This document shows positions 1,687 through 8,307 of a stretch of 8,307 nt of DNA, piece by piece (the stretch's first letter is position 1; each line of letters begins with the position of its first letter). The notes under the pieces are model-generated. The model ran no database searches. It saw nothing but the letters and a program-made list of their open reading frames with translations, and was not told the origin of the DNA. The translations under genes were made by a program, and so were the position numbers. This DNA is from Deltaproteobacteria bacterium RIFOXYA12_FULL_61_11 (GTDB lineage Bacteria > Bdellovibrionota_F > JAHFAK01 > YA12-FULL-61-11): the NCBI GenBank assembly GCA_001799195.1, contig MGSU01000185.1, positions 1 through 8,307 of the forward strand. The letters run 5' to 3'.

Positions 1687-3054
1687 TCACACCGCGAGAT
1701 CGTTGTCCGGATAGGTAGCGCGAGGACGCTCGCAGAAGAAGGCCATCCCGAGCGTCAGCGGGCCGAGTCGGCCCAGGAACATCATGGCGATGAGGATGAC
1801 CTTGCCGAGCGGGGTGAGCGCCGACGTGATGCCCATGCTCAACCCGACCGTACCGAGGGCCGACGCCGCCTCGAACAGGTTGTCGAGGAACCCGGAGGCC
1901 TCGGTCAGTTGCAGGAGGAAGGTGCCGACGAACAGCGCGCCGAGGTACATACCCGCGCCGGCCACCGCGTTGAGCACCCGTTCCGACGGTATGGGCTGAT
2001 CCCAGAAGCGCACCTCGAGGCGGCCGTGCATGGCGCTGCGCATCACCCCCCAGATCGCGGTGAAGGTGGTCGTCTTCAGTCCGCCGCCGGTACCGGAGGG
2101 GGAGGCGCCGATGATCATGAACGCAAGCAGCAGGAAGAGCGAGGCCTTGGACAAGGCACCGATGGGCACGGTGTTGAAGCCGACCGTGGTCATGGCGGTC
2201 ATGGCCTGGAAGAACGCGGCCAGGACGCGACGATGGGGGGCCATGGTCTGGAAGGACGGTTCGATCAAGAACAGTACCACGGTGCCGAAGACGGCCATCC
2301 AGAGGGTTGCCAGGAGGATGATCCTGCTCGTCAGGGTGATCCGTTCCGTCTCCCCGGTAAAGGTCCGCCACAGGTCGGCGCAGACGATGAACCCGACCGC
2401 GCCGAGGTAGCTGAGCGTGCCGATGACCAGGTGTAGCCAGAAATCGTCGGTAAAGCCCTCGAAGCTTAGGTTATAGAGGCTGAAGCCCGCCGTGCAGAAG
2501 GCGGAAACGCTGTGGAAGACGGCCGACCACAGGGCCTCGGGGTCTCCGGCCCGCAGGAAGATCGGATACAGGGCCAGGGTTCCCAGGGTCTCGAAGACCA
2601 GGGTGAACTGGATGACCCGCCGGAGAAACACCGTGATGTCGAGGCTGGCCGGTAACGAGAACACGGTCTTGCCGATCTCGGTGCGGATAGGAGACAGGGA
2701 CCGGCTGCGCGCCAGGATGACGAAGGAGCCGAAGGTCATGTAGCCGATCCCGCCGACCTGGATCAGGGCGAGCACGACCAGTTCGCCGAAGAAGGAATAC
2801 GTGTCGGCCACGCTGAGCGGGCAGAGTCCCGTGGTCGAGACCGCAGACATGGCGATGAACAAGGTGTCCAAGGCACCGACCGCCTTGTCCAGGGCCCACG
2901 GCGACAGCAGGAGGATCCACCCGAGGACGACGTAGGAAGCATAGCCGTAGAGCGCCAGGGAGGCTGGATGGTACTGGGACAATCGGTTCATGGGGATGGA
3001 CCACCCAGCCCGAAGGAGACGCCCCAGTCGCGAGCAAGACTGTTGTTCCCCCAT
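1687..3054 (-). CDS. TrkH/KtrB-family potassium channel subunit, second copy
   Basis: This 455-residue integral membrane protein of the inner membrane belongs to the TrkH/KtrB potassium-transporter family (four M1-P-M2 repeats, one pore). All four pore-loop signatures are visible: AVSTTGL (filter glycine at residue 76), SAFCTAGF, AMTTVGF and ALGTVGL. The flexible gating loop of the third repeat appears as GASPSGTGGGLKTTT, and the family's C-terminal FLGRLGPLTLG is present. The length is closer to KtrB (about 450) than to E. coli TrkH (about 480). The ATG at 3054 is chosen because GGAGGGAG lies directly before it. An internal ATG at 2991 would begin right before the first membrane helix but has no ribosome site. 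Longer frames upstream run into the ktrA-like gene and are not real. It is the last gene of the operon, 17 bases after the regulator. The family call is firm; KtrB versus TrkH naming is less certain. Confidence 0.92.
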   Translation of the reverse strand: MGEQQSCSRLGRLLRAGWSIPMNRLSQYHPASLALYGYASYVVLGWILLLSPWALDKAVGALDTLFIAMSAVSTTGLCPLSVADTYSFFGELVVLALIQVGGIGYMTFGSFVILARSRSLSPIRTEIGKTVFSLPASLDITVFLRRVIQFTLVFETLGTLALYPIFLRAGDPEALWSAVFHSVSAFCTAGFSLYNLSFEGFTDDFWLHLVIGTLSYLGAVGFIVCADLWRTFTGETERITLTSRIILLATLWMAVFGTVVLFLIEPSFQTMAPHRRVLAAFFQAMTAMTTVGFNTVPIGALSKASLFLLLAFMIIGASPSGTGGGLKTTTFTAIWGVMRSAMHGRLEVRFWDQPIPSERVLNAVAGAGMYLGALFVGTFLLQLTEASGFLDNLFEAASALGTVGLSMGITSALTPLGKVILIAMMFLGRLGPLTLGMAFFCERPRATYPDNDLAV

Positions 3055-3055
3055 A

Positions 3056-3063
3056 CTCCCTCC
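3056..3063 (-). promoter_or_regulatory. Ribosome binding site of the second channel gene
   Basis: Read on the minus strand, GGAGGGAG lies one base before the ATG at 3054, with the GGAGG core four bases from it. It decides this start over the in-frame ATG at 2991 and over longer open frames upstream. Confidence 0.6.
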
Positions 3064-3071
3064 ACCGTGGT

Positions 3072-3758
3072 TCAACGTTGGCGTACCGTATCTTTTTTGG
3101 ACACGGCAAGGAGGTCCTGCTCCTTCCCGATCATCACCAGCACATCCGCGGTCCGTACGACGTACTCGGGGCCGGGCAGGAAGACGAAGGCCTGGCGGTC
3201 GGGCTGTTTGACCGCCAAGATGAACACGCCGTAGCGCTTGCGCAGTTGCAGCTCGGCCAGAGGCCGGTCGCCGAACTCGCAGGGAGCTTGGACGTCCACG
3301 ACTCGATAATCCTGTTCGAGCGGGACGAAATCGAGCAGGTTGGGATGGAGGATCTGCCGTGCTCGACGGTCCGCGGTCTCGCGTTCCGGGAAGATGATCT
3401 CGGTCGCCCCGACCGAGCGCAAGATGGTAGCGTGGTCGTCGTTCACTGCCTTGGCTCGGATGCAGCGCACGCCGATCTTCTGCAAGTGCAGGGTGCATAA
3501 GATACTGGCTTCCATCGTCTCGCCCATGCTGACCACGGTTTCATCGACCTCGGCGCCGACCACGGAGCGCAAGGCAGTATAATCCCGCGCGTCCAGGCAT
3601 ACCGCGCGTTGTACCTGTTCCGAAACCTGGTCGATCTTTTCCTGGTTGCGATCGATAGCCAGGACTTGGCACTGGCGAGACAACGCAACGGCCAGGTGCG
3701 TGCCGAACTGCCCCAGCCCGATGACGACGACCTGCAGTGGGTTGTGATGCAGTTTCAT
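3072..3758 (-). CDS. KtrA/TrkA-type RCK regulator of potassium uptake
   Basis: The protein has 228 residues, the usual size of KtrA (one RCK_N plus one RCK_C domain); E. coli TrkA is twice as long. Residues 10-19 read VVVIGLGQFG, the GxGxxG dinucleotide-binding turn (Gly14, Gly16, Gly19). Asp36 at the end of the second strand is the usual ribose-contacting acid. The Rossmann part runs to about residue 135 (FPERETADRRA), and the TrkA_C part follows to about 222. Such proteins form cytoplasmic octameric rings that bind ATP/ADP or NAD(H) and gate the KtrB/TrkH pore. The ATG overlaps the stop of the upstream channel gene as ATGA (3755-3758), so translation is probably coupled; GGGAGG lies 11 bases before the start. 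The next channel gene starts 17 bases downstream. The family call is firm; which channel it gates, or both, is not visible. Confidence 0.92.
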   Translation of the reverse strand: MKLHHNPLQVVVIGLGQFGTHLAVALSRQCQVLAIDRNQEKIDQVSEQVQRAVCLDARDYTALRSVVGAEVDETVVSMGETMEASILCTLHLQKIGVRCIRAKAVNDDHATILRSVGATEIIFPERETADRRARQILHPNLLDFVPLEQDYRVVDVQAPCEFGDRPLAELQLRKRYGVFILAVKQPDRQAFVFLPGPEYVVRTADVLVMIGKEQDLLAVSKKDTVRQR

Positions 3759-5110
3759 CCGATCATGAGCCTCCCTTCGGGAAAAGTGATCCTCTCCTTG
3801 AACCTGGGCAGCATCCACATGGCCAGGGTCAAGGGACCGAGCCTGCCCACGAACATGGTCGCCACGATCCACAAGCGACCGACGGTGCTCAGCTTCGGGG
3901 TCAACCCGGTAGACAGCCCGACCGTGCCGAACGCCGAAATCTGTTCGAAGACCAGGTCTTCCAGCCCGATACCCGGGCTTCGTTCGCTCAGCGCGAGGAC
4001 CAGCACACCGCAGGCGTTCCAAAGTCCGGCCAAGCTGAGCAGGAGGGTGATGCGTCGCACAACTTCTACGGAAATGGTCCGTCCGAGCAGCACGGTGTCC
4101 TTGCGGCCGAGCAGGATGCTGTGGAGCTGAGCTCCGAGGATGGCCAGCGTGGTCGTCTTCAAGCCGCCGGCGCAAGAACCGGGGCTGCCGCCCACGAGCA
4201 TCAGCATGATCAAAACCAACAGGGAAGCCAGGGGGAGATGGCCGATCTCTACGGTGTTGAAACCGGCCGTGCGTGCGGTGACGCTCTGGAACAAGGCCTG
4301 GCAGAAACGGTCGAGGGGATCCGTCAGGTCCGGGCTAATACCGCACAGCAGCAAGGCCAGGCAGCCGAAGGCAATGAGCAACCCTGAGACCAGGACGGCC
4401 ACCTTGCTGTGGAAACTGTACCTGCCCAGCGGTCCGTGCCCGCTCCCTGTACCTCCCGGCAGGTGCATCCAGCCTTCGAGCAGGACGGCATGGCCGATGC
4501 CCCCGAGGACGATCAGTCCGGTGATCGTCGCCAGCAAGGGTACATCGCGGCCGTACCCGAGGAGGTTGTCGCTGGCGAGCGAGAAGCCGGCGTTGCAGAA
4601 CGCGGAAACGGCATGGAAGACGGCGCTGCCGGCCGCCTCGAGCGGGCGGTGGTAGCGCAGGAGACAGGGGAATAAAAGCACGGCACCTATGCCCTCGAGG
4701 ACCAGGGACAAGCCGACGATGCGTCGGAGTGACAACGACAGTTCTCCGGCGAGGTTGCGCTGGAAGAAGACCTCGCCAAGGGTTTCCTGGGAGCGGAAGG
4801 AGAGGCGTCTGGCCGCGAACTGGGCGCCGATCGCTGCTACGGTCACGAGTCCCAGACCGCCGAGTTGGATGAGCACCAGGATGACGAGCTGGCCGAACGG
4901 TGTGAAGTCGGTGGCAGTGTCCACCACCACCAGCCCGGTGACGCACACCGCCGAGGTTGCGGTGAAGAGGGCCTCGAGCGGACCGACGGCGTCGCCGACC
5001 CGGGCGATAGGCAGTAGCAACGATGCGGTACCCACGAGGATCAGGGCGGCGAAACCGCTCACCAGGAGGGCTTGGGGAGAGCCAAACAACAAACGCAGCA
5101 GAACCTTCAC
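3755..5110 (-). CDS. TrkH/KtrB-family potassium channel subunit, first copy
   Basis: First gene of the potassium operon: 451 residues with eight expected membrane helices and four pore loops. The filter signatures are TSAVCVTGL (residues 52-60), SAFCNAGF, SVTARTAGF and AFGTVGL. The third-repeat gating loop GGSPGSCAGGLKTTT is very close to the KtrB consensus, and the protein ends with MFVGRLGPLTLAMW. The start is taken as GTG at 5110 because GGAGG lies four bases upstream and the product then opens MKVLLRLLFGSPQALL, as in typical KtrB. The frame is open to a TTG at 5176, but that start has no ribosome site and would add a 22-residue non-hydrophobic leader. The stop overlaps the ktrA-like ATG. 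The other channel gene of the operon is clearly divergent, so this is not a recent duplication. Potassium transport is firm; ion coupling is not determined by what I can see. Confidence 0.93.
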   Translation of the reverse strand: MKVLLRLLFGSPQALLVSGFAALILVGTASLLLPIARVGDAVGPLEALFTATSAVCVTGLVVVDTATDFTPFGQLVILVLIQLGGLGLVTVAAIGAQFAARRLSFRSQETLGEVFFQRNLAGELSLSLRRIVGLSLVLEGIGAVLLFPCLLRYHRPLEAAGSAVFHAVSAFCNAGFSLASDNLLGYGRDVPLLATITGLIVLGGIGHAVLLEGWMHLPGGTGSGHGPLGRYSFHSKVAVLVSGLLIAFGCLALLLCGISPDLTDPLDRFCQALFQSVTARTAGFNTVEIGHLPLASLLVLIMLMLVGGSPGSCAGGLKTTTLAILGAQLHSILLGRKDTVLLGRTISVEVVRRITLLLSLAGLWNACGVLVLALSERSPGIGLEDLVFEQISAFGTVGLSTGLTPKLSTVGRLWIVATMFVGRLGPLTLAMWMLPRFKERITFPEGRLMIG

Positions 5111-5306
5111 AATACCTCCGGCACCTCGGACCGCCGCGCCCCTATCAAGAGTTGTGCCGTCGGCTACTTCATTCAAATAAAAGGTATTTCAGGACGCTGC
5201 GCTCGCATCTCTGCGCGAGGATCATGCATCCTGCACGACCGGTCGTGGAATGTGCACGTGGATTTTTTCTCAGTCGATGTTCGTGAACGAGGGGTTTCGT
5301 GGGTTT
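5111..5306 (-). promoter_or_regulatory. Upstream control region of the potassium operon
   Basis: These 196 bases separate the lipoprotein gene from the potassium operon and must hold the operon promoter if it has its own. The GGAGG ribosome site for the GTG start lies at 5115-5119 (minus strand). A perfect 14-base palindrome sits at 5234-5247. The minus strand has an A/T-rich patch around 5176-5192 that could serve as a -10 region, but no convincing -35/-10 pair was found. A short inverted repeat CTCGC/GCGAG lies at 5202-5219. No gene is seen here. Confidence 0.4.
5234..5247. promoter_or_regulatory. Perfect 14-base palindrome, possible operator
   Basis: CACGACCGGTCGTG is a perfect palindrome without a central gap, lying about 124 bases upstream of the first channel gene. 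This is a typical position and size for a dimeric transcription factor site. The binding protein is unknown. With no loop it is a poor RNA hairpin, which favours a DNA-binding role. Confidence 0.4.
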
Positions 5307-6227
5307 TCAGAGGTCGTCATAGGTCGAAAGCTCGACGCCAAAGACAACCCGGTCCTGGCATTTTTCGAGTAACTTCGAGCTGCGCGGATGCTCGGTAAGG
5401 CTCCACAACATGTCGGTGGCTCGCTCATAGTAGAGGTCCTCCGAGCCATGCGGCCACCTGAAGCGCGTGGCACTTCCATTAGGCTCCGAGAGATTGTTTA
5501 GGTCGACACTTTTGGTTCTGACCAGTCTGGCAGTGGAGTTCTTATAGTCAGTTTGGCCGGTGATCGTGGACCAGATCACCCCATTGATCCGCATCGCTCC
5601 CTGACTGTAATACACAGGCCGCTTGAGTTTGAGGGTCGGGCTCGGGGTGTCGGCTGGCCAATAGCGATCCGGTTTTGCACTTGTGAACGCGCCATTGATG
5701 AAATGAAAGCCATGCACGAGAGGCGATGGAGATAATTCCCATTTGGTTACATATTGGCTGGTGATGAAGACCTTGTCCGAACCCGTTTCCTGCTCGGACG
5801 ATTGCAGGGAGATGGACGAGAATGGGTCGCCATGGTCGAACTGATATACGCCGATCTCGGGTATCACATAGCGGTGGCTGAAGGCGACGAGCTTGCCGTC
5901 GGCAGAAGTACCGATCCGGTCATCGATACTGCTGTCGGCCGTGAAGAGGTTGTTCAGATCGAAGATCCTGATGCCGACGTGCGTATCGACGACAAAGAGC
6001 AGGTTGCCGTCCGCCTCGATACCGCCCGCATGGATGGAAATCTGCTTGATCGTCACCGGGTCACCGGCGGCGATGGGCTTCTTTTCGTCCGAAGTCGAAA
6101 CAGGTTCTTGCCTGACAACCTTCACCAATTGCAGGTGCCCGTAAGGGATAACCGCGGCTTCTGGATCGGTGAAGTCCGCAATGCTCAGCCTGATCCCCGA
6201 TTGGTACTGTGCTTGGAATACCAGCAA
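5307..6227 (-). CDS. Beta-propeller-like lipoprotein, C-terminal part after frameshift
   Basis: This frame carries the C-terminal two thirds (about 296 codons) of the lipoprotein whose N-terminus lies in another frame to the right. It opens at a TTG (6227), but the first 11 residues are probably out-of-frame artefact; genuine sequence begins at about IRLSIADFTDPEA, near base 6195. Residues 66-91 of the frame (HAGGIEADGNLLFVVD...GIRIFDL) resemble an LVIVD/beta-propeller blade: small residues, then strand, VVD, G-(I/L)-RIFD. The rest is rich in strands and polar residues (SADGKLVAFSHRY), as in secreted propellers. There are no membrane segments. It ends in TGA at 5307-5309. With one base restored, the whole protein would have 458 residues. 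The function is unknown; the propeller call is moderate. Confidence 0.65.
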   Translation of the reverse strand: MLVFQAQYQSGIRLSIADFTDPEAAVIPYGHLQLVKVVRQEPVSTSDEKKPIAAGDPVTIKQISIHAGGIEADGNLLFVVDTHVGIRIFDLNNLFTADSSIDDRIGTSADGKLVAFSHRYVIPEIGVYQFDHGDPFSSISLQSSEQETGSDKVFITSQYVTKWELSPSPLVHGFHFINGAFTSAKPDRYWPADTPSPTLKLKRPVYYSQGAMRINGVIWSTITGQTDYKNSTARLVRTKSVDLNNLSEPNGSATRFRWPHGSEDLYYERATDMLWSLTEHPRSSKLLEKCQDRVVFGVELSTYDDL

Positions 6228-6682
6228 GCCAGAATCAAACGCCGGTCCTTGTCGCCAAAAACCAGCGGACGGCCGGGTGCGTTCGGGCTGATACCAGCGA
6301 TACCCTGGGGATAATATTTTTCATTGTCTCGATCGGTATCGTTCCAGACAAACCCCTGCGGGTTATGACTATCGGTGATATTAAAGGACCTGGCGCTTCG
6401 TATCTTCGTTGTCGCCTCGCGATTATACGTGAAGGTGCTCGTCTTCCCGTCCACCAGTGCGGTGGCATACTGTTGCTTCAGATTGGCCACGGCGATGGTT
6501 TCGTCGGTATATTCGAAAACAGCGTTGGTGGGGGCAGCGGAAAACTCAGGTTCTCCGTCATCGACGATTTCGTCAGTTTCTTCGGCAATTGCCCCAGTCT
6601 GATCGCTGTCCTCGAGTTCGTCGGAATCGTCCTGACAACCCAGCAGCACCACCACCAGTCCGAGCAGCGCGAGCTTCTTTAT
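6185..6682 (-). CDS. Beta-propeller-like lipoprotein, N-terminal part before frameshift
   Basis: From the codon at 6680-6682 the frame reads (M)KKLALLGLVVVLLGC: a lipoprotein signal peptide with lipobox LLGC and Cys16 as the lipidated residue. Gln follows at +2, which would send the protein to the outer membrane in a Gram-negative cell. A very acidic linker (QDDSDELEDSDQ...) leads to the folded part (NPQGFVWNDTDRDNEKYYPQG...PLVFGDKDRRLILACWYSK). The frame then meets a stop at 6185, shortly after the frameshift at 6195-6198. The first codon is ATA, not ATG/GTG/TTG, although GAGGAGG sits five bases before it. A GTG at 6655 is available, but it would cut off half of the signal peptide. There is no start codon in frame further upstream as far as about 6760. 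The gene follows the legumain fusion gene by 106 bases. Its function is unknown. Confidence 0.65.
   Translation of the reverse strand: MKKLALLGLVVVLLGCQDDSDELEDSDQTGAIAEETDEIVDDGEPEFSAAPTNAVFEYTDETIAVANLKQQYATALVDGKTSTFTYNREATTKIRSARSFNITDSHNPQGFVWNDTDRDNEKYYPQGIAGISPNAPGRPLVFGDKDRRLILACWYSKHSTNRGSG
6195..6198 (-). other. Probable one-base frameshift in the lipoprotein gene
   Basis: On the minus strand the run is CGGGGATC. With one more G the frame reads ...STNRG-IRLSIADFTDP..., joining both halves smoothly and giving a single frame of exactly 459 codons from 6682 to 5307. A lost base in a G run fits either a real mutation or a sequencing or assembly error. No heptamer typical of programmed -1 frameshifting is seen nearby. 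Confidence 0.65.
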
Positions 6683-6788
6683 ACGAGCCTCCTCGTGTAT
6701 ATGTTTAGGAATAAAAAGGAATTTCCTGCTCTTCAGGGGAGCCCCCCATCGGCACGCTACTGCTTCCGAGGCGCTGTGGCATGGACAA
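6683..6788 (-). other. Short spacer between protease and lipoprotein genes
   Basis: This 106-base gap between two genes in the same direction contains GGGGGGCTCCCC (minus strand, about 6735-6746), which can form only a four-pair stem. A short A/T-rich stretch (about 6701-6725) follows, and then the ribosome site of the lipoprotein gene. No clear terminator or promoter boxes were found, so co-transcription is plausible but not shown. Confidence 0.3.
6688..6694 (-). promoter_or_regulatory. Strong ribosome binding site before an ATA codon
   Basis: Read on the minus strand, GAGGAGG lies five bases before ATA at 6682. Spacing and strength are ideal, and the signal peptide begins exactly there, so translation should start at this codon even though it is not a normal start. 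Confidence 0.6.
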
Positions 6789-8307
6789 TCACTGCACGAA
6801 CTCCTGCAGCGTTACCGTGCTGATGCCACTGAAGTTATTGGCATTGTAGGCGGTTACATGGGATCCACCTACCTGGAGGTAGAGCTGCTGATAGAGCTCA
6901 TCGAGCGCCAGCGTCGGGGTGGTAGTGTTGGCGAGGTAGAGCTGGTAGGCGAACTGGTCTGCGCGCCACAGATCGAAATCGGGGTCGTAATTGGAGCCCA
7001 GCGAGCTTTCCGTAGGATTTGCCCCGGCCAACAAAAGGACTCCCGGGGACTCGAGCTGAGTGCCCAGGATGCCCCCATGACAGGCCTCGACGGCGATCAG
7101 CAGGCGGCGGTAACGCTTGTGCGCGAACATCGACGCCGCAGTGGCCGCGAGTTGCTCGGGGAGGAGCAGCGTTTCTCCGGCTCCCTGTTCCATGCCCGCC
7201 CTGCTGCCGCCGACCAGCACTCCGCTGGAATTGCCATGGCCGACGAGGAAAACATACACATTGTCGTCGGCTGAGCTATCGATGACCACCGGCAACTCGG
7301 GGCTGCTCTTTCCTGCGAGGATGGCCAGCAGATCATCGGCGGTGAGCTCCTCGAGGGAGTAATCGATCTCCACCTCTGCATACAGGTTGGGACCGCCTGC
7401 CACATTGCGCACCATGCCAGGTTCGGCACTCTGGCTGTTGGTAGCCAGGTCGTCGGCGAGCACGAGGACGAGGTGGTCGTCGGGAATGCCGTTGGCGCGC
7501 AGCGCTTGATAGTGTGCCAGTGCGTCGGCTTGATGGCGGTAGTTCTGCCAACCGCCCGAGAGGGCAGCGATCAGCGCCCAGGTCTTGGCCTTCGGGCCAG
7601 GATTGTAGCTGCTGTTGCTGTCGAGCTTCTGACTGCGCTTGTGCGAGGCGAAGCTGCGCGAGAGCGAGGTGGCGCGCTTCGAGGCCCCGGTTGAGATGAA
7701 GGCAAGAGTGACGAAGTCACCGTATTCGATCCGCCAGTGGCCATAGACCGAAGCGACTGGCTCGGTATGCAGATCGGGGTCGAAGTCCAGGGGGCCGCTC
7801 GCCCCCTGCACATCGGGCAAATGCCCGTTCTTGATGCCCGTCAGCGCCTCGCCAATGCCTTGACGATCCCAACCCGTAGCGGGGCCGCGCGCATCTACCA
7901 CGTCTACCAACGCATCAGCCAGTCGCTCCCCCCCCTCCCCATTGCTCCGCTCTAAGGAATAGGCGAGCAAGGTCAGCGCATCGTAGAGGTTGGCCGCATA
8001 CGGGGGCGGCGGGTGGCCGAAGTGAACGCGGTAGGCGGTCTCAAAGCCACTTCCCGGGTCGGGGGAGGGCACGGTGCCCTCGAGCCCCTCAGCGAGCGTT
8101 CCCAACTTGGTGATCAACGCGGGGAAGTAAGCAGAATCGGAGAAGAACAGCCGCGTTGTCGGGGAGAGAGTGCGTGCCTGTCGCGCAATGCAGACCACTG
8201 CATCAGGCTTCGAGGCCCCCAAGAACAGGACTTCGGGTTGCGCGGCCAGCGCCTGTGCAACAAAGGGTTCACAGAGGGGGTCGGTCTCGTCGTAGCGCAC
8301 GACCGCG
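6789..8307 (-). CDS. LivK-type ligand-binding domain fused to a legumain-like C13 protease (5' end outside window)
   Basis: The frame is open to the right edge and stops at 6789; 505 residues are visible. Numbering below counts the GTG at 8300 as residue 1. Residues 1-200 match the C-terminal half of branched-chain amino-acid-binding proteins (Peripla_BP_6): EVLFLGASKPDAV, then FETAYRVHFG...YAANLYDALTLLAYSL, then GPLDFDPD...YGHWRIEYGDFV. A basic, serine- and asparagine-rich linker (about 203-239) follows. Residues 240-490 form a full legumain-like domain: GGWQNYRHQADA, NGIPDDHL, FLVGHGNSSG, KRYRRLLIAVEACHGG, GANPTESS and GSHVTAY. The catalytic set is Asn253, His355 and Cys407. The likely S1 residues Arg255, Glu405 and Asp443 match those that give legumain its asparagine specificity. 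Legumain's Asp before the catalytic His is Gly354 here. The signal sequence would lie outside the window; a periplasmic or lipid-anchored protein is expected. Protease family is firm, ligand unknown. Confidence 0.9.
   Translation of the reverse strand, partial: AVVRYDETDPLCEPFVAQALAAQPEVLFLGASKPDAVVCIARQARTLSPTTRLFFSDSAYFPALITKLGTLAEGLEGTVPSPDPGSGFETAYRVHFGHPPPPYAANLYDALTLLAYSLERSNGEGGERLADALVDVVDARGPATGWDRQGIGEALTGIKNGHLPDVQGASGPLDFDPDLHTEPVASVYGHWRIEYGDFVTLAFISTGASKRATSLSRSFASHKRSQKLDSNSSYNPGPKAKTWALIAALSGGWQNYRHQADALAHYQALRANGIPDDHLVLVLADDLATNSQSAEPGMVRNVAGGPNLYAEVEIDYSLEELTADDLLAILAGKSSPELPVVIDSSADDNVYVFLVGHGNSSGVLVGGSRAGMEQGAGETLLLPEQLAATAASMFAHKRYRRLLIAVEACHGGILGTQLESPGVLLLAGANPTESSLGSNYDPDFDLWRADQFAYQLYLANTTTPTLALDELYQQLYLQVGGSHVTAYNANNFSGISTVTLQEFVQ

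Follow-up and report, generated by a model that had tools for sequence, protein, structure and literature searches.

Work on legumain has concerned a eukaryotic enzyme of lysosomes and vacuoles, also active as a ligase, that is held under the control of a C-terminal prodomain. The window analyzed here, a stretch of 8,307 nucleotides from Deltaproteobacteria bacterium RIFOXYA12_FULL_61_11 (contig MGSU01000185.1, hereafter C185), has as its last gene one that joins a LivK-type periplasmic binding domain to a legumain-like catalytic domain of peptidase family C13. This locus raises the question of whether such a gene is a genuine and inherited fusion, and what a small-molecule receptor might do when attached to a protease of this kind. 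In the open-access literature, we found no paper on a bacterial legumain, on this pair of Pfam domains or on legumain together with perforin in Bacteroidota, and no description of the fusion architecture or of its gene cluster; no NCBIfam or PADLOC model spans the whole fusion. Newly observed here are also a Bmp lipoprotein gene upstream of the fusion in 19 loci, including that of the window gene, and MACPF lipoproteins in five Bacteroidales clusters.

The fusion gene of the window and its full-length paralog

The last gene of the window is a single open frame of 505 codons with no stop (Table 1). A first-pass annotation, made from the sequence alone, had described it as a LivK-type domain and a complete C13 domain in one stop-free frame. 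This was confirmed by the frame itself and by Pfam, in which Peptidase_C13 (PF01650) matched residues 242–493 of the protein over profile positions 1–248 of 258 (E 4e-39, 135 bits, cut-off 22.8). With regard to the binding domain, the description held in that the domain is of LivK type and in frame with C13, but the window contains its C-terminal lobe only. Because of this, the match to Peripla_BP_6 (PF13458, profile positions 176–311 of 343) reached 23.4 bits (E 5e-5), below the cut-off of 31.7. As the window covers contig C185 (8307 b) from end to end, the 5' end of the fusion gene is absent and the gene is incomplete.

Table 1. Coordinates of the fusion gene, its domains and motifs, and the adjoining lipoprotein gene in the window.
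Feature	Position	Strand	Basis
LivK-type binding domain / legumain-like C13 fusion gene	6789..8306	-	Open frame, Pfam and 42% identity to full-length paralog; 5' end cut by contig end
C-terminal lobe of type I periplasmic binding (LivK/Peripla_BP_6) domain	7704..8306	-	Pfam; aligned to paralog residues 193-395
Interdomain linker	7584..7703	-	36-45 aa across relatives
Legumain-like Peptidase_C13 catalytic domain	6828..7583	-	Pfam; protein terminates just beyond domain, without legumain-type C-terminal prodomain
NYRHQAD motif (legumain Asn42, Arg44, His45; S1 pocket region)	7524..7544	-	
Catalytic His codon (VGHG motif, legumain His148)	7236..7238	-	
Catalytic Cys codon (VEAC motif, legumain Cys189)	7080..7082	-	
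Downstream lipoprotein gene (KKLALLGLVVVLLGCQDD...)	5307..6690	-	Related to the paralog's 764-aa DUF6528 propeller-like lipoprotein neighbor

A full-length paralog, 695 residues long and 42% identical to the window protein, was found on contig C117 of the same genome. It begins with a lipobox (LLFGC) and contains, in one unbroken frame, Peripla_BP_6 (E 7e-23, 82.3 bits), ANF_receptor (2e-13) and C13 (3e-51, 174.8 bits), all above cut-off, so that the Pfam check proposed with the first-pass annotation found both domains in a complete gene; its Peripla_BP_6 score places the protein among the LivK-type periplasmic binding proteins. The paralog and the lipoprotein gene downstream of it are located in an AT-rich island (L003, about 2500–8000) whose GC content is 43.5%, compared with 58–62% in the flanks, suggesting horizontal acquisition.

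The missing part of the window gene could also be traced. Contig C38 terminates within an N-terminal fragment of another such protein (150 aa, lipobox LLGAC), which stops at paralog residue 151, and the window protein begins at paralog residue 193. The two proteins closest to the one fragment are also those closest to the other (60–62% and 65–66% identity), with the paralog lower at 43–46%. As the fragments are complementary and share their nearest relatives, we take them to be very probably one gene, with ~42 codons missing between the contigs; an exact overlap between the ends of C38 and C185 was sought, and none was found.

Catalytic and binding halves of the protein

The protease half belongs to peptidase family C13, scoring above the curated cut-off of PF01650 and carrying the His-Gly and Cys motifs (VGHG and VEAC). 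Among solved structures, phmmer identified human legumain as the closest (8e-38), followed by GPI transamidase (1e-30). An AF2 model of the homologue from the Loclat MAG (L064) matched human legumain with a Z score of 37.9 (1.4 Å over 255 residues) and GPI transamidase with a Z score of 36.4. The catalytic subunit of GPI transamidase (PIG-K/GPI8) thus shares the peptidase family and fold with a nearly equal Z score, whereas its sequence score is below that of legumain; these bacteria would not be expected to have a GPI pathway.

Among 34 aligned fusion proteins, the catalytic His was retained in 33 and the catalytic Cys in 32. Equivalents of the S1-pocket residues were also preserved: Asn42 in 30, Arg44 in all 34, His45 in 33 and Glu187 in 31 (Asp in 3). 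The legumain numbering (Asn42, Arg44, His45, His148, Glu187 and Cys189) was mapped by motif. Besides the catalytic His and Cys, the fusions have in common with legumain/AEP the NYRHQAD motif, the Glu before the Cys and, in the L064 model, the overall fold. The domain resembles true legumain and, judging from the retained pocket residues, is predicted to cleave after Asn or Asp. The differences are in location and control: legumain is a lysosomal or vacuolar enzyme whereas the fusion is a bacterial lipoprotein, and all fusion proteins have the LivK-type domain at the N terminus and end 0–5 residues past the catalytic domain, leaving no place for the C-terminal activation peptide/prodomain. In legumain, this prodomain controls the enzyme, and C13 peptidases as a family have already been listed for bacteria (PMC4357240). 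The initial remark that legumains are mainly eukaryotic therefore needs to be narrowed: C13 was known from bacteria, and what is unusual is legumain-grade similarity together with this architecture. One copy, in genome G645 (L123, 8344–10557), has Asn in place of the catalytic His and Ser in place of the Cys and has no adjoining Bmp gene. These features fit loss of function, and the copy is a probable pseudoenzyme.

In the binding half, the L064 model matched LivK with a Z score of 31.1. The Thr of an S..ATS motif, which is also found in solved LivK/LivJ-type proteins and is part of their amino-acid site, was retained in 32 of the 34 fusions. The type I binding fold, the S..ATS ligand motif and a DDSYG motif are all shared with the LivK/LivJ branched-chain amino acid binding proteins; the fusion differs from them in that its binding domain is joined to a protease.

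A Cys in the lipobox column was present in 34 of 34 aligned N-termini, including those of the paralog and the C38 fragment, the window's own 5' end being absent. The family thus has a lipoprotein signal, and the envelope location suggested from the window alone is supported. In four MACPF-linked Bacteroidales loci, the residues following this Cys are rich in acidic side chains (e.g., CHKDDD and CKDDDD), a stretch that would resemble a published surface-export signal (PMC5080379).

Recurrence and descent of the fusion

The 34 fusion genes recovered and aligned have three sources: Bacteroidales, an uncultured "deltaproteobacterial" phylum and the window's genome. A scan of genomes of named species detected the fusion in a "delta proteobacterium" MAG (Loclat, G386) and in several Bacteroidales MAGs (from horse faeces, RUG bins and others), with 27–42% identity across nearly the full length. 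With a profile search, 7 of 393 Bacteroidales-order genomes and 11 of 282 genomes of the Loclat MAG's phylum were then found to contain full-length fusions; three further Bacteroidales genomes and the two genes of the window's genome complete the set. Several fusion paralogs were often seen in one genome.

A survey with the Pfam C13 profile covered largely the same groups (282 genomes of the Loclat phylum and 247 of the Bacteroidales order). In the former, 16 of 17 matches at E 1e-10 or better were fusions, the exception (L158) being a hydrophobic protein that matches the fusion model over the second half of C13 only. In the Bacteroidales sample, every C13 match above 100 bits was a fusion. 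Across both sampled groups, nearly every strong legumain-like C13 domain comes joined to the same binding domain. Two findings had been named beforehand as speaking against a real system, namely that homologs always encode the domains as separate genes, or that a frameshift or assembly join lies at the linker. The first is ruled out by these counts, and no such break was found in the window, the paralog or the recovered relatives. The search for the same pair in other genomes, also proposed at that stage, instead gave 34 recurrent fusions with catalytic residues conserved as described above. A chimera or assembly artefact that joined two unrelated genes could be suspected where a contig end cuts the gene, as it does in the window, but the linker frame is unbroken in the window and the paralog, as well as in relatives that come from independently assembled genomes and fall into two large phylogenetic groups; given the recurrence and the paralog, this explanation has practically no chance of being correct, and we rule it out.

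Two large groups, and most of their sub-groups, were recovered alike in the trees of the C13 domain and of the binding domain, and the window gene was sister to G973 and G812 in both. This agreement between the trees indicates one old fusion whose two domains have descended in parallel. The linker is also constant in length (36–45 aa throughout the relatives). In 99% of pairs, the sensor half is the faster-diverging part (mean identity 28%, vs 38% for the protease half), as expected for a diversifying receptor. Besides, five long frames in the Loclat phylum (L104, L106, L108, L110 and L111) matched the binding-domain half of the model only, and may represent other fusions of the same receptor domain.

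Neighboring genes and a possible role

In 19 loci, the gene immediately upstream of the fusion encodes a lipoprotein of the Bmp (PnrA-like) family, and in most of them the two frames overlap. This Bmp gene was present in 15 of 16 loci of the Bacteroidales group and in 4 of 17 loci of the second group with visible upstream DNA; the partner of the window gene is on C38. Because several Bacteroidales members were below the reach of Pfam, a dedicated model was built from eight members, namely L144 (the locus of L065) and seven whose genes match the Bmp profile of Pfam. Searched against 1461 frames, this model matched all eleven other upstream genes (E 7e-10 or better) and no further frame. On C38 (L063 5478–8310, plus strand), histidine-kinase-like and response-regulator-like genes, the latter of sigma-54 type by eye, lie directly upstream of the Bmp gene. 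A histidine kinase and sigma-54-type regulator were considered as a conserved partner, which was not supported, as they are not conserved in relatives.

MACPF (perforin-like) lipoproteins were found in the fusion cluster of five Bacteroidales genomes. In G498, G716, G680 and G388, the Bmp-fusion pair is closely preceded by two or more of their genes, and in G389 two more are found 12–15 kb away on the same strand, past a run of lipoproteins without assigned family. Among six genomes with any MACPF match, 11 of 14 matches were within 16 kb of a fusion gene; the chance estimate made for this proximity, in which the MACPF genes of a genome count as a single cluster placed at random, is no more than approximate. 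No MACPF match was seen in four of ten Bacteroidales hosts, in the window's genome or in three other hosts; its absence from the window's genome and from the four Bacteroidales hosts rules out MACPF as a universal partner. These proteins share the MACPF domain and lipoprotein signals with the Bacteroidales secreted antimicrobial proteins (BSAP), but they are neighbors by gene position only. It has been reported that fragipain and doripain, surface lipoprotein proteases of clan CD (family C11) in Bacteroidales, activate a secreted antibacterial toxin (PMC9308784). They are lipoprotein cysteine proteases of the same clan and an earlier example, in this order, of secreted antibacterial proteins being activated by proteolysis, although they are Arg-specific members of another family and have no binding domain.

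Other lipoproteins also recur beside the fusions. In the window's genome, a DUF6528-related lipoprotein gene follows both fusion copies. The copy in the window (5307–6690, minus strand) is without a standard start codon and seems to shift frame near 6200, and appears to be a decayed gene or to contain a sequencing error. Tandem lipoproteins of a "FWDVVGQL" family adjoin the G389 and G390 fusions (L146 357–6792, L147 243–6296 and L175 11856–14342), and a relative is located between MACPF genes in L119; these proteins had no Pfam match, and a fold prediction failed at pLDDT 34.

We propose that the fusion is a lipid-anchored, exported endopeptidase of the legumain family, in which an N-terminal LivK/Venus-flytrap domain binds an amino-acid-like ligand and thereby positions or gates catalysis; we give this reading roughly even chances. 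The exported cysteine endopeptidase would cut after Asn or Asp, and a small amino-acid-like ligand in the flytrap would position or gate the catalytic domain. Control of the enzyme, in legumain exerted by the prodomain that is missing here, may have passed to the flytrap; the fusion could form a pair of sensors with the Bmp protein, and the substrates might be the neighboring lipoproteins, propeller-like in the window's genome and MACPF in Bacteroidales. Proteolysis under ligand control, as suggested by the first-pass annotation, is plausible. In the L064 model the relative placement of the domains is uncertain (pTM 0.51, linker pLDDT <50), and gating is therefore without structural support.

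The binding domain could instead be a docking platform that holds the Bmp protein or a protein substrate, while the legumain domain constitutively processes or ligates neighboring lipoproteins in a transpeptidase-like manner, as do GPI transamidase and plant ligases. This would agree with the closeness of the catalytic domain to GPI transamidase noted above, with the tight Bmp pairing, which suggests a protein complex, and with the fast-diverging binding domain and varied partner lipoproteins, which fit partner recognition. However, the core of the LivK amino-acid site, including the conserved Thr, would be needless for pure docking, and we consider this reading possible but on the unlikely side. 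Nutrient scavenging, in which extracellular proteins would be cut after Asn or Asp and the fused binding domain and Bmp would collect the products for uptake, appears unlikely. LivK and Bmp domains are classic binding proteins of ABC uptake, and both NCBIfam and Pfam match these families, but those neighbors of the fusions that could be recognized are lipoproteins or unrelated housekeeping genes, with no transporter noticed among them in a non-systematic look for permeases, and many recurring neighbors are lipoproteins of other kinds, including the MACPF arrays. In the window, no permease was recognized among the genes.

A ligand-gated legumain may be extended to a wider scheme, in which the surface protease and the Bmp lipoprotein control adjoining MACPF or other lipoproteins, giving a receptor-protease-perforin cascade in Bacteroidales, with propeller-like lipoproteins as the targets of an equivalent system in the window's lineage. 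We regard this scheme as unlikely to hold as a whole. The MACPF linkage in gut and rumen Bacteroidales provides a concrete, testable hypothesis on how such proteins are activated. If true, a prodomain-less bacterial family with a Venus-flytrap receptor would be a natural ligand-switchable Asn-specific protease or ligase, and a receptor-fused legumain would represent a new logic of envelope signalling. With regard to anti-phage defence, the fusion matched no model in PADLOC-DB.

Elsewhere in the window, a TrkA gene and the two TrkH-type potassium transporter genes that flank it occupy 1687–5176 on the minus strand, and the 3' part of a gene with a DUF4143 domain, cut by the contig end, lies at 2–664 on the plus strand.
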